A stretch of 44,105 nucleotides of DNA from NCBI GenBank assembly GCA_012839115.1, contig DUNX01000063.1, positions 1 to 44,105 of the forward strand, given 5' to 3'. Made by a program: the position numbers and the translations under genes. Below the pieces are notes generated by a model that had not been told where the DNA came from, ran no database searches, and saw only the letters and a program-made list of their open reading frames with translations. Of the stretch, positions 30,954 to 39,079 are shown piece by piece; position 1 is the stretch's first letter, and each line of letters opens with the position of its first letter. The stretch is from Bacillota bacterium. Its GTDB lineage: Bacteria; Bacillota; UBA4882; UBA10575.

Positions 30954-33419
30954 ATGTTAAGAATAGGCCAGGAGAGTTTTCTCAAAGACCTGTTAATCTG
31001 GTTTTTGGTCAGTCTCATCGTGGCTTCTTTATTGTCCGCGGCCGGCGGCGCCCTGGCCGACCGGTACTTTTCCCGGGCGGTCAGCGGCATAATCGGCGAA
31101 GCCGGTGAGTACGACCTTTTATTCCAGGTCCGCAGCGATCTGCAGGAGGCCGCCTTTTCCCGGCTGGAAGAGATCATTACCGAAAACTTCCCCGGCTCGG
31201 TCTTGAAGGCCGGGGTACGGGTAGCCGGCCAGAGCACCATTTTTGTGGGGCTCGCCCCCCAATACCGGACGAAAGATGTCTTCAACAACCTGCGGCTTTA
31301 CTTTCAAGATATCCCTGGAAACAGCGGTTACAGTTTAATGACCGAACCGCGGCTGACCCTTTCCGGAATACCCGGGCAGGTCCATGATGTTTTTATCCGG
31401 GAGGCGGAACGGATCCCCGGGGTGGTATTCGCCTTTTCGGAGAGCGGCAGGATTCAAGTGCTCTTCCGGCACAGGCGGGATGAGGAAAAAGTCAAAAAAG
31501 AACTGGAAAAACTCTTAAAGGATTATTGCTTGATCGAGGTAGGCTTTGCCGGGGAACCGGCGACGGAAGGACGGACCAGCAAAGGTTTGGTGGATCATCT
31601 GGCCGGAAAGGCCGGTATCTCCTATATCCGTGATGTCAGCACCGAAGAATCCGGCGACCAACAAGCCCTCTTGGCAACGATGGCAGAGATGAAAAGGTTT
31701 TTGCTCTCTTTTGCCGGGCAGGTGAAGGTGGAGCCGGAACCCGGCTGCCGGTTGGCAGAGGGGACCCTTTTGATTTTACAAGGAAAGGCCGGTACACCCC
31801 TGGAAAAAGGAGAACCGGTTAAGCCCGGGCATGTGGTGGTCAAACTGGTAAAGCTGGAAGGGGAAGTAGAGGCGGAAGGGGAATTAACCGGCGTGGTCGT
31901 TCAGGGTGAGACTTCCTGGATCAAAAACCGGCAAGCTTTTTTTCTCACCGGAGGTGGCACCTCCGGACAGAAAATTGGCGCCCCGGCGGCGGTAGTCACT
32001 CCTGAGAATCCTAGAGAGAAACTGCACGCCGCCCTGGAAGAAGCAGGGGCTATCTTGGGCCAACTTCATGATCTCCAGAATCTTTCCGCACAAGCGGAGG
32101 CTGTTTTAACGACGGCGGAGACAATCCAGACTGCCCTGACTACTGTGGATTCGGTCTTTTCTGGGCCGGAGGGGAAGACCGCCCGGGAACTGGCAAAATT
32201 GGCGCATCTTTTTGCCGGTATCGGTGAAGAATTGGAGATCATGGCCAACACCTTGGCCCGGCTCCGTTATTTCGAGAGACGGCTGGAGGACGCGGTTACC
32301 GGTCTGGAAGGCCTTCACCTCCTGGTCCGTTTGGGGATTCTCCCGGAATTACCCGGGGTTTACGGTGATTTAGGGCGGAAAATCAATGTGTTGGACGGGC
32401 AGATGGAACAGGTGGTTGAGACATTGCGCCGTCATGCCCGCGCCCTTGATGACTTTATTAACCGTTTTAACCCTTTGGTTCGCACATTGATGGCCTGGCG
32501 GGAACAGTCACTGGCTATCTCCGACAGCCTGGCGACTTTTCACGGTTTGGCCGGGGAGGATGGCTCGGGACTGGCGGAACTAACCGCCGAGAGCCTGGAG
32601 GCCTTTGCCCAACTGGACTCCTCCGGCCTGCGGACGGAGATTGACACCCTTGCCAACGGATTGGGGGGAGAAGGCCTTGATTTCGGAATGGTCCTGGAAC
32701 AACTGAAAGGATTCGAAGAGGCCCTGCCCCGGATGGAAGATGAGGAGATTGGCCGTACCCTTTCATTGCTCGACGGGTATTTGGGAGGAGAGACGGCTTC
32801 CGGCGAGACGATCCGGGTTTTTGTCAATTCCGGCCACAATGAAGCAAAGGTCCACAAAGCCATTAAAGAGTATTTTACCGCCGACCCGGTGGAGATCGAG
32901 GTATTACCGTCCGGTGTGATCCAGCCGGATATCCGTGGTGAACTAACCCGGCTCTTGCAGGATATCAGGGGGGTTGTTGCCGCCCTTCTTGTGGTTATCT
33001 TCGGGTTGTTAACCCTTTTGCTGGACCAGGCGCCGGTAATGTCCGCCTTTCACCATATGGCACTGGTTTTCCCCTTGGCCACCGGGGAGAAAACCGAGAT
33101 AAAAAGGGTGTTTTATCACCGGCTATTACCCCGTTTGTACGCTTTGGTCAGCGGCGGTCTCTGGTTTTGGCTGGTTTATCACCTTTCCGGCGCTCATATC
33201 CCCTATCTCTCCGGCAAAGACTTTCTTATTGCCGGGGCCCTTTTGGGGTGCGGGTTCTTCCTGGCCGCTGAGAAGTTTCACCGCCTGAACCTGGAGGAGA
33301 TCACCGCCGGGTGCTCATTAGGTCTTTCTTTTACCTCCATCATGCGAGAGATCGTAATTCCGGCCGGGCGTCCGGGTCTATTACAGTTTCTTAACCGCTG
33401 GAAGATGGTGATGAAGTGA
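30954..33419 (+). CDS. Large ABC-system membrane subunit with giant extracytoplasmic domain
   Basis: I do not recognise a named family for this 821-residue protein. It has one N-terminal membrane helix (about 12-33), an extracytoplasmic region of about 640 residues, and three or four C-terminal membrane helices starting near 672 (RGVVAALLVVIFGLLTLLL). The extracytoplasmic part includes a beta-rich stretch near 270-340 with repeated EGTLLILQG, PLEKGEPVKPGHVVVK and GELTGVVVQG phrases, reminiscent of barrel-sandwich folds. A long helical, probably coiled-coil stretch lies near 360-600. ATG 30954 follows GGGGGAAAGG and the extended -10 site. The ATPase gene overlaps its end by 4 nt. It may be the permease of an envelope-spanning exporter; the substrate is unknown. 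Confidence 0.65.
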   Translation: MLRIGQESFLKDLLIWFLVSLIVASLLSAAGGALADRYFSRAVSGIIGEAGEYDLLFQVRSDLQEAAFSRLEEIITENFPGSVLKAGVRVAGQSTIFVGLAPQYRTKDVFNNLRLYFQDIPGNSGYSLMTEPRLTLSGIPGQVHDVFIREAERIPGVVFAFSESGRIQVLFRHRRDEEKVKKELEKLLKDYCLIEVGFAGEPATEGRTSKGLVDHLAGKAGISYIRDVSTEESGDQQALLATMAEMKRFLLSFAGQVKVEPEPGCRLAEGTLLILQGKAGTPLEKGEPVKPGHVVVKLVKLEGEVEAEGELTGVVVQGETSWIKNRQAFFLTGGGTSGQKIGAPAAVVTPENPREKLHAALEEAGAILGQLHDLQNLSAQAEAVLTTAETIQTALTTVDSVFSGPEGKTARELAKLAHLFAGIGEELEIMANTLARLRYFERRLEDAVTGLEGLHLLVRLGILPELPGVYGDLGRKINVLDGQMEQVVETLRRHARALDDFINRFNPLVRTLMAWREQSLAISDSLATFHGLAGEDGSGLAELTAESLEAFAQLDSSGLRTEIDTLANGLGGEGLDFGMVLEQLKGFEEALPRMEDEEIGRTLSLLDGYLGGETASGETIRVFVNSGHNEAKVHKAIKEYFTADPVEIEVLPSGVIQPDIRGELTRLLQDIRGVVAALLVVIFGLLTLLLDQAPVMSAFHHMALVFPLATGEKTEIKRVFYHRLLPRLYALVSGGLWFWLVYHLSGAHIPYLSGKDFLIAGALLGCGFFLAAEKFHRLNLEEITAGCSLGLSFTSIMREIVIPAGRPGLLQFLNRWKMVMK

Positions 33420-36721: not shown

Positions 36722-37552
36722 TTGGAAAGATGGGGATTAATAGCCGGCCGGGGATTGCTTCCTTTAGAAGCGGCAAAAGGCATGAGGCTGATGGGGATTT
36801 CCCCTGTTATTCTCGGCGTGAAGGAAGAGACGGACCCGGCGTTGGCGGAGGCGCTTAATAAGGCGGGGTTTACGGTGGCCTGGGAGAGCCTGGGACAATT
36901 GGGGGCTATCCGCCGTTTTTTTCAAGAACAAAAGGTAGCAAAGGTTGTTATGGCCGGTAAAGTAGGTAAAGAGGTTGTTCTTACCGGGATCGAAATGGAT
37001 GCGGATTTAAAGACCGTCCTGGCAGGGCTCCAGGCAAAACATAATGACGCAATCCTACTGGCCTTGGCGGAATACTTTGCGAAACATGGAATAGAAGTGG
37101 AAAAGCAAACCGTTGTCCTTTCCCACCTGTTACCGGGGAAAGGATGCCTGACCGGACGGGTTCCTACCGCCCGGGAAGAAGCTGATATCCGTTTTGGTTA
37201 CCGGACCGCAAAAGAGGTCGCCGCGCTCAACATCGGCCAGAGCGTGGTAGTAAAGAACGGGATGGTTCTTGCGGTAGAAGCAATGGAGGGGACCGATGCC
37301 ACGATCTTGCGCGGCGGGCAACTGGCCGGCGGGGGAGCGGTCGTGGTAAAGGTGGCCAACCCCCGCCAGGATTTGCGTTTTGACATACCGGTTATCGGTC
37401 CGAGTACGGTCGCGGCGGTGATTCAGAGCCGGGCCGCGGTTTTGGCGTTCGAGGCTGCCGCCGCTTTTCTTCTGGAGAAAGAAGCAACAATTGCCCGGGC
37501 AAAAGCGGAGAATATCTCCCTGGTGGCGGTGGCTGATGACTTTCCGAACTGA
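36722..37552 (+). CDS. lpxI: UDP-2,3-diacylglucosamine diphosphatase LpxI
   Basis: The 276-residue protein is of the LpxI (DUF1009) type, which releases UMP from UDP-2,3-diacylglucosamine to give lipid X, the role LpxH plays in E. coli. Evidence is WGLIAGRGLLPLEAAKG, VMAGKVGKEV, LLPGKGCLTGRVPT, NIGQSVVVKNGMVLAVEAME and GTDATILRGGQL. The C-terminus has DIPVIGPSTV. The start is TTG 36722 after GCGGTGGGA. In Negativicutes lpxB usually follows lpxI; here an array of small hairpins and then lptC follow instead. Confidence 0.92.
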   Translation: MERWGLIAGRGLLPLEAAKGMRLMGISPVILGVKEETDPALAEALNKAGFTVAWESLGQLGAIRRFFQEQKVAKVVMAGKVGKEVVLTGIEMDADLKTVLAGLQAKHNDAILLALAEYFAKHGIEVEKQTVVLSHLLPGKGCLTGRVPTAREEADIRFGYRTAKEVAALNIGQSVVVKNGMVLAVEAMEGTDATILRGGQLAGGGAVVVKVANPRQDLRFDIPVIGPSTVAAVIQSRAAVLAFEAAAAFLLEKEATIARAKAENISLVAVADDFPN

Positions 37553-37554
37553 TC

Positions 37555-37669
37555 CCCCTGTGAAACAGGGGTTCATACGAAGTAGGCCCCCTACAAAGTA
37601 GGGGACCCCTACAAAGTAGGGGACCCCTGCGAAGCAGGTACCTGCTGAAAGCAACACCTGCGAGAGCAG
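37555..37669 (+). repeat. Array of about seven mini-hairpins, 15-18 nt apart
   Basis: Most of the lpxI-lptC spacer is a tandem series of small hairpins whose centres lie about 15-18 nt apart. They are CCCCTGT-GAA-ACAGGGG (37555-37571); a weak TAC-GAA-GTA (37576-37584); CCCCTAC-AAA-GTAGGGG twice (37588-37604, 37606-37622); CCTGC-GAA-GCAGG (37626-37638); TGCT-GAA-AGCA (37643-37653); and CTGC-GAGA-GCAG (37658-37669). Stem sequences differ but remain complementary, and most loops are GAA or AAA. GCGAAGC is known as an unusually stable DNA mini-hairpin. No coding frame explains the array. Confidence 0.85.
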
Positions 37670-37718: not shown

Positions 37719-38330
37719 ATGAAGGCGAGAACGGGGGTTATTTTAACCACCGGGGTTATTTTGGCCGCGGTGTTTCTCGGCTATCTGCTCTACACCAGCT
37801 TTCAGCCGGTCTCTGACTTGGCGCAGGTTTTTCCTCAAGAGAAAGAAAAAAGTCTTGCCTCTTCCGGGTCTCCATCTGGTTCCCCAGACGGGGACTACTC
37901 CGACACGTCCCATCCGGCCTTACGTCTCGAGCAAACAGAAGTTACCTTGGTGGATCAGGATAACCGCACTTGCTGGCAACTGCGGATCAGGACCATGGAA
38001 AGAGAAGGAACCGCCTTTGCCCTGGGAAAAGTAACCGGCGAGTATTTTACCCCTGACGGGGAGGTATTGGCGGTACAGGCGAAGAAAGGTATGTTAGGTG
38101 CTGATTTTTCCCGCCTCTCTTTGCAGGAGGTGGTGATCACCGGGGAGAAACTGGCGGTTAACGCCGGGAGAATGGAATGGACGACGGCGCCGGGCGGAAT
38201 GCTTTCCGGGGAAGAAATTGTCCTGAAAAAGCAGGGGATTGAGGTTTATGCCGACCGCTTCCAGACGGATCCCGGCCTGGAAAAGGTGGTTTTCGACGGT
38301 CAATCCCGTTGGAAATTTCCCGCCAGATAA
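37719..38330 (+). CDS. lptC: LPS export periplasmic protein LptC
   Basis: The 203-residue protein has a single N-terminal membrane helix (residues 6-26) followed by a Ser-rich linker and a beta-jellyroll-like LptC domain (LEQTEVTLVDQDNRTCWQLR, VTGEYFTPDGEVLAVQAKKG, ADRFQTDPGLEKVVFDG). LptC receives LPS from LptBFG and passes it to LptA. The identification rests on topology, domain pattern, and position before lptA-lptB-lptF. No other plausible reading exists. Confidence 0.85.
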   Translation: MKARTGVILTTGVILAAVFLGYLLYTSFQPVSDLAQVFPQEKEKSLASSGSPSGSPDGDYSDTSHPALRLEQTEVTLVDQDNRTCWQLRIRTMEREGTAFALGKVTGEYFTPDGEVLAVQAKKGMLGADFSRLSLQEVVITGEKLAVNAGRMEWTTAPGGMLSGEEIVLKKQGIEVYADRFQTDPGLEKVVFDGQSRWKFPAR

Positions 38331-38347
38331 CAGGTGGGAGGTGGCTA

Positions 38348-39079
38348 ATGATTCGATCATCTGTGGTAATCCGGTCATTAATGATAAAACCATTAGTAAT
38401 GAGAAGATTTGTTTGTTTTAGCGGTCTGCTCCTGTTGGCGCTGGGCATGTCGTTAATAAGCCCGGGGCCGGCCGCTGGTACGGTGTCCACCGGCACGGCT
38501 GAGGAAGGGCTGGGACTGGAGATCATCGCGCCGGAGGGAAGCGATCTTGATCTGGAGAAAGAGTATTTTTCTTATTTCGGCAGTTCTGAACAGCCTGTAA
38601 TAATGCGGAACCCTAAATTTTCTCTTACTGCCCGCCGGATTGATTACGACCGGAAACAACAGGAACTAACTGCCCGGGGGGACGTTTTCTTAGTAAGTGA
38701 GGAGATGGAATTACGCGCAGAGAAACTCCTGGTCGAACTGGAACGGGAATCTCTCACAGCGACCGGAGGTTTTACATTAACCACAGGGGAGATGGAACTT
38801 ACCGGCCGGATGCTCACCGCCAGCCTTCTGGGAGGGGTGTTGACTGCTACAGAAGAGATAAACTGGCGTTTCCGCGATTTTTGGGGGAAAGCGGAGCAAC
38901 TGGTCTACCGGAAAGACGAGGAAAAGGTCTACCTTTCCGGTACACCCGTGGCGTACTTGGGAGAGAACTACATTGAGGGGACCATGATGGTCTTGCACTT
39001 GGAAACAGGAAGGATCATTATAACCGGGCCGGTTAAGTCAAAAATGCAACCGCAAGGGGGAGGAACCGGTGTCGATTGA
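38348..39079 (+). CDS. lptA: LptA/OstA-like LPS transport protein
   Basis: The 243-residue protein has a signal sequence (hydrophobic GLLLLALGMSLI, cleavage possible after AAG) and an OstA-type beta-jellyroll with alternating strands: NPKFSLTARRIDYDRKQQEL, TARGDVFLVSEEMELRAEKL, LTATGGFTLTTGEMELTGRM. It would form the periplasmic bridge carrying LPS to the outer membrane. ATG 38348 follows GGGAGGTGG; the basic leader is long (about 22 residues), so a start at an internal Met is possible. lptB overlaps its end by 11 nt. Confidence 0.85.
   Translation: MIRSSVVIRSLMIKPLVMRRFVCFSGLLLLALGMSLISPGPAAGTVSTGTAEEGLGLEIIAPEGSDLDLEKEYFSYFGSSEQPVIMRNPKFSLTARRIDYDRKQQELTARGDVFLVSEEMELRAEKLLVELERESLTATGGFTLTTGEMELTGRMLTASLLGGVLTATEEINWRFRDFWGKAEQLVYRKDEEKVYLSGTPVAYLGENYIEGTMMVLHLETGRIIITGPVKSKMQPQGGGTGVD

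Follow-up and report, generated by a model that had tools for sequence, protein, structure and literature searches.

A tandem array of mini-hairpins downstream of lpxI in a Bacillota genome: a candidate quasi-palindromic minisatellite

Compensated changes in the stems of hairpins are routinely read as proof of a conserved RNA. In PMC8794818, template switching during replication is described as yielding perfect stems and compensated changes without selection, and PMC3733652 describes the GTAG and CGTC super-families of REP/BIME elements by a GTAG or CGTC tag that flanks the hairpin on one side and stays unpaired. A literature search covering few subscription journals returned no short-period hairpin arrays at fixed bacterial spacers. 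Here we analyze an array with textbook-looking compensated stems that is frayed in one sister species and absent from another, and which thereby constitutes a small natural test case of how far a mutational process can counterfeit the signal of a conserved RNA.

The stretch of DNA analyzed (44,105 nucleotides; hereafter the window) is contig C28 of a genome of 2.35 Mb in 148 contigs (97% complete; G000), which we compared with two other species of the same genus (G001 and G002); three wholly masked stretches were excluded from all counts. A first-pass annotation of the window had reported about seven hairpins between lpxI and lptC, with centers 15-18 nt apart, stems that differ among units while staying complementary, and loops resembling GAA or AAA. 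We located these stems at 37555-37669 as seven hairpins, one of them of 3 bp, with centers 15.5-18 nt apart, in the 166-nt spacer that follows the lpxI stop codon. The spacer belongs to an LPS gene cluster with the order lpxC, fabZ, lpxA, lpxI, a gene in the lptC position, an LptA-like gene, an ABC ATPase gene and LptF/G. Of the two flanking assignments, that of lpxI is upheld by Pfam; the lptC label is one of gene position only, the gene matching no Pfam or NCBIfam family. The features of the locus are as follows.

36722-37552, plus strand: lpxI, upstream of the array (open reading frame with Pfam LpxI_N and LpxI_C; stop codon at 37550-37552)
37555-37571, plus strand: u1, hairpin CCCCTGT-GAA-ACAGGGG (hairpin search)
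37576-37584, plus strand: u2, weak 3-bp hairpin TAC-GAA-GTA (by eye)
37588-37604, plus strand: u3, hairpin CCCCTAC-AAA-GTAGGGG (hairpin search)
37598-37612, plus strand: inter-unit palindrome GTAGGGG-A-CCCCTAC, an alternative fold whose register is kept in G001
37606-37622, plus strand: u4, hairpin, exact tandem copy of u3 with period 18 (hairpin search, Tandem Repeats Finder)
37626-37638, plus strand: u5, hairpin CCTGC-GAA-GCAGG, holding GCGAAGC (hairpin search)
37643-37653, plus strand: u6, hairpin TGCT-GAA-AGCA (hairpin search)
37658-37669, plus strand: u7, hairpin CTGC-GAGA-GCAG (hairpin search)
37719-38330, plus strand: gene in the lptC position, downstream of the array (open reading frame)

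The gene at 37719-38330 is kept across the genus despite its lack of a family match, and the gene after it (38309-39079) has a match to LptA/LptD_N and a weak one to LptC.

The units run head-to-tail, each a near-palindrome, in the manner of a tandem quasi-palindrome; Tandem Repeats Finder reports a period of 18, and shuffled units fold less well than the consensus unit (p = 0.02). Chance is excluded by shuffle tests. The hairpin score of the array is 31, against a mean of 4.4 in dinucleotide shuffles (sd 3.3, maximum 19.5; none of 3000 reaches it), and its short-span folding has z = -5.5, with none of 1000 shuffles as good; for reference, 300 random 110-nt stretches of the genome gave a mean short-span z of -0.26 (sd 0.98). 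The array is the top hairpin cluster in 479 kb of G000 and, among 262 sequences (the window and 261 loci), was outscored by one GC-rich acidobacterial locus (28 versus 22.5). A scan of whole-fold energy placed it 17th in about 700 kb, so it is the short-span hairpins, and not total fold strength, that are distinctive of it. When about 0.93 Mb of the three genomes was rescanned for short-span folding it ranked 8th, the mltG spacers of G000 and G002 described below ranked 9th and 11th, and the others among the top 26 look by eye mostly like terminators or coding sequence. The motif GCGAAGC, singled out in the first-pass annotation, is indeed present at 37629-37635 (u5); it also occurs at 31096 (plus strand) and 14184 (minus strand) of the window, and is therefore not special to the array.

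The mini-hairpins are not the sole fold of this sequence, since arms also pair between units. The minimum-energy RNA structure of a 120-nt stretch is mostly nested or mixed, with z = -5.4 for the array, and in folds computed with DNA parameters the mini-hairpins dominate, both strands beating their shuffles (z = -6.2 and -6.8). Several identities were examined and rejected. An intrinsic terminator is ruled out, the array having no T-run and none being called there, as is a known RNA family, with no Rfam 15 match at the gathering threshold in the window and none at L265, L002 or L071, three loci with arrays, up to E = 1. The units abut at 16-18 nt with no constant repeat and no spacer, unlike a CRISPR or TIGR-type guide array, and the loops are mostly not GGA, the loop looked for in a CsrA-type sponge. 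Minus-strand open reading frames over the array (175 and 96 aa) lack a Pfam match and lie antisense to lpxI; the apparent likeness of their peptide to G001 follows from homology of the array.

The first-pass annotation took compensatory change to imply that the hairpin itself is conserved and proposed that the same spacer be compared in relatives. Related spacers do hold hairpins; the orthologous spacers nonetheless do not support the implication. In G001 the lpxI spacer aligns with that of G000 over u3-u7 and carries a frayed array in a different pairing register, u1 being missing from its start in the alignment. The counterpart of u3 has one extra T in its 5' arm and that of u4 one extra A in its 3' arm, single-base insertions that break both mini-hairpins; the two bases are mutually complementary, and the block consequently folds as one long hairpin (CCCTTAC-ACA-GTAGGG-GAT-CCCTAC-GGA-GTAAGGG). 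Short-span hairpins in this spacer are matched by 412 of 1000 shuffles and the whole fold, not clearly better than chance, by 23 of 200. The G002 spacer, of about 75 nt, is without an array, and 329 of 1000 shuffles fold as well. Only u7 has a recognizable counterpart in the same place in all three congeners. Two metagenome-assembled records, both named 'Bacillota bacterium', have lpxI spacers matching G001 (L071) and G002 (L070), and by eye no such array is seen in the 11 lpxI spacers inspected from other genera of the family.

All 12 family loci from outside the genus (L013-L024) carry a different, conserved element just after the lpxI stop codon, GAAGG followed after 15-16 nt by GCGAAT or a near variant; it is found at none of the three loci in the genus, its place there being taken by the hairpin array or by a short spacer. 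The looser GAAGG...CGAA motif recurs elsewhere in the three genomes 5, 2 and 2 times, and its reverse once in each.

A search of the genome for further tandem units, also proposed with the original observation, brought to light arrays in two other spacers. A DNA search of G000 returned one other locus (C124:108521-108601; 75% identity, E = 3e-4), which lies between two genes that Pfam recognizes as DUF1292 and YceG (the latter mltG) and ends in a terminator. A covariance model of the window array (R1), run over 61 genomes with strict filters under which further degenerate arrays may exist, matched in G000 and G001 only. Its match in G001 beyond lpxI is the orthologous DUF1292-mltG spacer, with about nine units of 16-21 nt and stems like CCCCTGT/GCAGGGG; its weakest match (G000 C121, E = 0.25) falls in a coding open reading frame. 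A two-unit model (R2), applied to 15 genomes and scoring 150 of about 375 candidates per genus genome, so that here too degenerate arrays may exist in addition, identified a third site, located in G001 with a Clp ATPase gene (NCBIfam) on one side and radA (assigned by eye) on the other.

The arrays thus found in three spacers (lpxI, DUF1292-mltG and clp ATPase-radA) have diverged in sequence and share a period of about 16-18 nt; each spacer lies just past a stop codon, and on the sense strand of each the C-rich arm precedes its partner. Counted by eye in G000, G001 and G002, respectively, the lpxI spacer has 7, about 4-5, and none or 1 unit; the mltG spacer 5-6, about 9, and 3, the terminator included in the last; and the clp-radA spacer 5-6, about 6, and 2, the hairpins of G000 being different ones from those of G001. 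The count is lowest in G002 at every spacer, and unit number differs among close relatives, as in a minisatellite. With spacer limits set by eye and 1000 shuffles for each of the nine spacers, short-span hairpins are in strong excess (at most 2/1000) at lpxI and mltG in G000 and at clp-radA in G000 and G001, borderline at mltG in G002 (24/1000) and G001 (73/1000), and without excess at clp-radA in G002 (260/1000), as at lpxI in G001 and G002. The mltG-spacer arrays of G000 and G002 end in an intrinsic terminator; in G001 two contig ends (L265:1665 to the contig end; start of L177 reversed) suggest that an insertion, probably an insertion sequence, has split the apparent terminator upstream of mltG.

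Beyond the genus, covariance-model searches gave no convincing match: in 9 of 12 genomes R2 gave matches, all of them weak (E = 0.07 to 5), and no array was seen in the two matches inspected (G016 and G006). A DNA search of the 61 relatives at E up to 1 returned, outside G000, short weak matches only (best E = 0.02). The pattern GTAGGGG-N0-4-CCCCTAC occurs in 2 of 61 genomes, its match outside the genus being in G027, and an exact 17-mer of the array has 10 matches in viral contigs.

The presence of similar units in three spacers would be accounted for by a low-copy mobile hairpin element, copied between spacers in the manner of REP/BIME. The two G000 arrays are in fact collinear over u1-u4, with a local score of 38 in the pairwise alignment on which this comparison rests, whereas 2000 Markov shuffles reached 23 at most; 2.5% of unit orders score as well. 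No sign of copying between loci other than this collinearity emerged. REP-like membership, raised in the first-pass annotation, nevertheless failed on copy number, tag position and transposase. Instead of many dispersed copies there is one other locus by DNA search and three spacers by the models, with 150 of about 375 candidates scored by R2 in each genus genome, and the spacers occupy the same places in sister species; GTAG is no unpaired end tag, since GTAGGGG is the 3' arm that pairs with CCCCTAC; and the proposed search for RAYT/TnpA-REP proteins found no Y1 transposase (PF01797) in G000 or G001, with 5 of 15 genomes having one and G002 a partial match. An empty site is offered by G002 alone, where loss is equally likely. 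We therefore regard a mobile element as distinctly improbable.

The dominance of mini-hairpins in DNA-parameter folds and the GAA and AAA loops on the sense strand of the window array would favor a different proposal, namely that stable DNA mini-hairpins with GNA loops form a binding array for a protein or serve single-stranded-DNA processes. Such loops are not kept in G001, where those of the mltG spacer read TAT, GAT, ACT, AGT, AAT and GGT and those of the lpxI spacer include ACA and GGA; there is no constant operator word, and the array is missing in G002. We consider a binding array very improbable indeed.

Evidence on selection was sought in the pairing of the units. In the longest array, the mltG spacer of G001, the share of cells with standard pairs is 77.8%, compared with 74.8% in shuffles, and 93 of 500 shuffles are as high, so that covariation does not rise above shuffles. 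Two-unit rows pooled from three arrays pair at 85.3% against 81.0% (0/500 as high) and hold nine doubly changed cells against 4.9 (7/500 as high), an excess that is overstated because pooled rows share units. If the sense-strand RNA were selected, T-G mispairs should exceed C-A mispairs; among 22 hand-picked hairpins, which left out two bulged units of the G001 lpxI spacer, one degenerate G002 unit, all clp-radA units, and the broken and first units of the G000 mltG-spacer array, the counts were 10 and 7 (p = 0.63), with no G-U asymmetry. Given that the perfect mini-hairpins are not kept between orthologues, that shuffles pair about as well as the longest array does and that wobble pairs show no asymmetry, the compensated stems are no proof of a conserved hairpin.

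These results weigh on the proposal that the arrays are an mRNA element indifferent to sequence, in which a cluster of stem-loops blocks 3'-to-5' nucleases or marks cleavage and so makes the upstream and downstream messages differ in stability, any stem sufficing and both sequence and unit number being left to drift. The position of the three spacers just past stop codons and the orientation of their C-rich arms agree with it, as do the RNA folding of the window array and of the G000 mltG spacer with its terminator (z = -5.6), the short-hairpin excess in four of nine spacers, and the intercistronic stem-loops that set message stoichiometry in the cip-cel operon (PMC10311766). Set against these are the missing short-hairpin excess at lpxI in G001, the missing array there in G002, and the two null results on wobble and covariation just described. 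On balance we hold an mRNA element to be a tentative alternative, which we do not favor; such a possible role of RNA, needing stems and not their sequence, would explain why the same three spacers keep hairpins.

A related reading is that what is inherited is the row of hairpins in its place: if so, three spacers would stay filled with hairpins that act as a generic RNA or single-stranded-DNA stop or processing device, stem sequence, loop and unit number would turn over, and template switching would supply paired stems faster than point mutation. We think this unlikely. Were the row of hairpins what is kept, it would represent an unusual case of function by structure with almost no sequence memory, in three spacers.

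The explanation that we favor, at about even odds, is that the array is a quasi-palindromic minisatellite, grown by slippage, re-perfected by template switching and passively transcribed. A repeat arranged in tandem with a period of about 16-18 nt, each unit being quasi-palindromic, would gain and lose copies through replication slippage; in hairpins formed on single-stranded DNA one arm would serve the polymerase as template for the other, and such template switching could occasionally re-perfect a stem, so that compensated changes arise with no selection at work. Given its place in a spacer of the LPS cluster, the array would presumably be transcribed and tolerated, with no function required of it. 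This minisatellite reading is supported by the exact u3/u4 copy, by the mini-hairpin folds under DNA parameters, by the change of register in G001 and the absence of the array from G002, and by units that differ in number and sequence at three loci. It is further supported by the lack of covariation or T-G excess, by the similarity of neighboring units in the longest array (p = 0.018), and by palindromic tandem arrays of unrelated sequence elsewhere: about 0.93 Mb of the three genomes contains 28 tandem arrays, and palindromic units at p < 0.05 are seen in 6 of them against 1.4 expected, a count that includes the window array and one that, judged by eye, is probably in part coding. The loops AAA and TTTT stand in corresponding units of two arrays, and ACT stands beside AGT; with three species to compare, these pairs are no more than suggestive of the loop inversions described for template switching.

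Other observations argue against a minisatellite. Neighbor similarity is non-significant in the window array (p = 0.2) and reversed in the G000 mltG-spacer array (p = 0.99), and the pooled rows do pair above shuffles. The minisatellite explains less well why two or three species have hairpins at the same three spacers, an outcome not required of a neutral process, and why two G000 arrays are collinear over four units, for which local growth alone is insufficient.

Further repeats were observed in the same genomes. In G001, L211:4350-4700 is a hairpin array of about 40-nt tandem units with a palindrome of the GGAGGGGG-CCCCTCC type, ending in a terminator-like stem and T-run. In G000, tandem units in or beside spacers fold clearly better than shuffled units at L155:1661-1790 (39 nt; p = 0.01), marginally so at L172:2266-2320 (15 nt; p = 0.05) and not better at L163:8400-8566 (16 nt). 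L164:11456-11717 (G000) comprises five copies of a 39-nt, or 13-codon, unit that is partly open in one frame. A single palindrome occurs in this unit in both imperfect and perfect form (CATCTTAAAGAATG and CATCCTTAAGGATG), and the locus may be a protein repeat in decay. L156:6838-6892 (G000) has two close copies of the palindrome ACAGGGAACCGTCCCCTGT, which we take to resemble intergenic repeats of clostridia.

Among known systems, the repetitive hairpin and double-hairpin elements of organelles resemble the array in being small GC-rich hairpins that turn over fast and lie in intergenic spacers; those elements are mitochondrial, dispersed and present in many copies, whereas the array is bacterial, tandem and confined to few loci. 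REP/BIME elements (PMC3733652) are likewise short extragenic palindromes, often grouped and in some clusters tandem, with stems of 5-13 bp and short loops; they differ in that the present arrays were found in three spacers, carry GTAG within the stem and reside in genomes without a Y1 transposase. The cip-cel operon (PMC10311766) also has stem-loops between the genes of a cluster, in one anaerobic member of the Bacillota; processing events were mapped at six spacers there, and the feature here is an array. Template-switch quasi-palindromes (PMC8794818) have perfect stems and compensated changes around stable small loops, as here, and loop inversions are a possible footprint common to both; the stems described there are rRNA stems under selection, whereas here a tandem array lies in a non-coding bacterial spacer and it is from its pattern that we infer switching.
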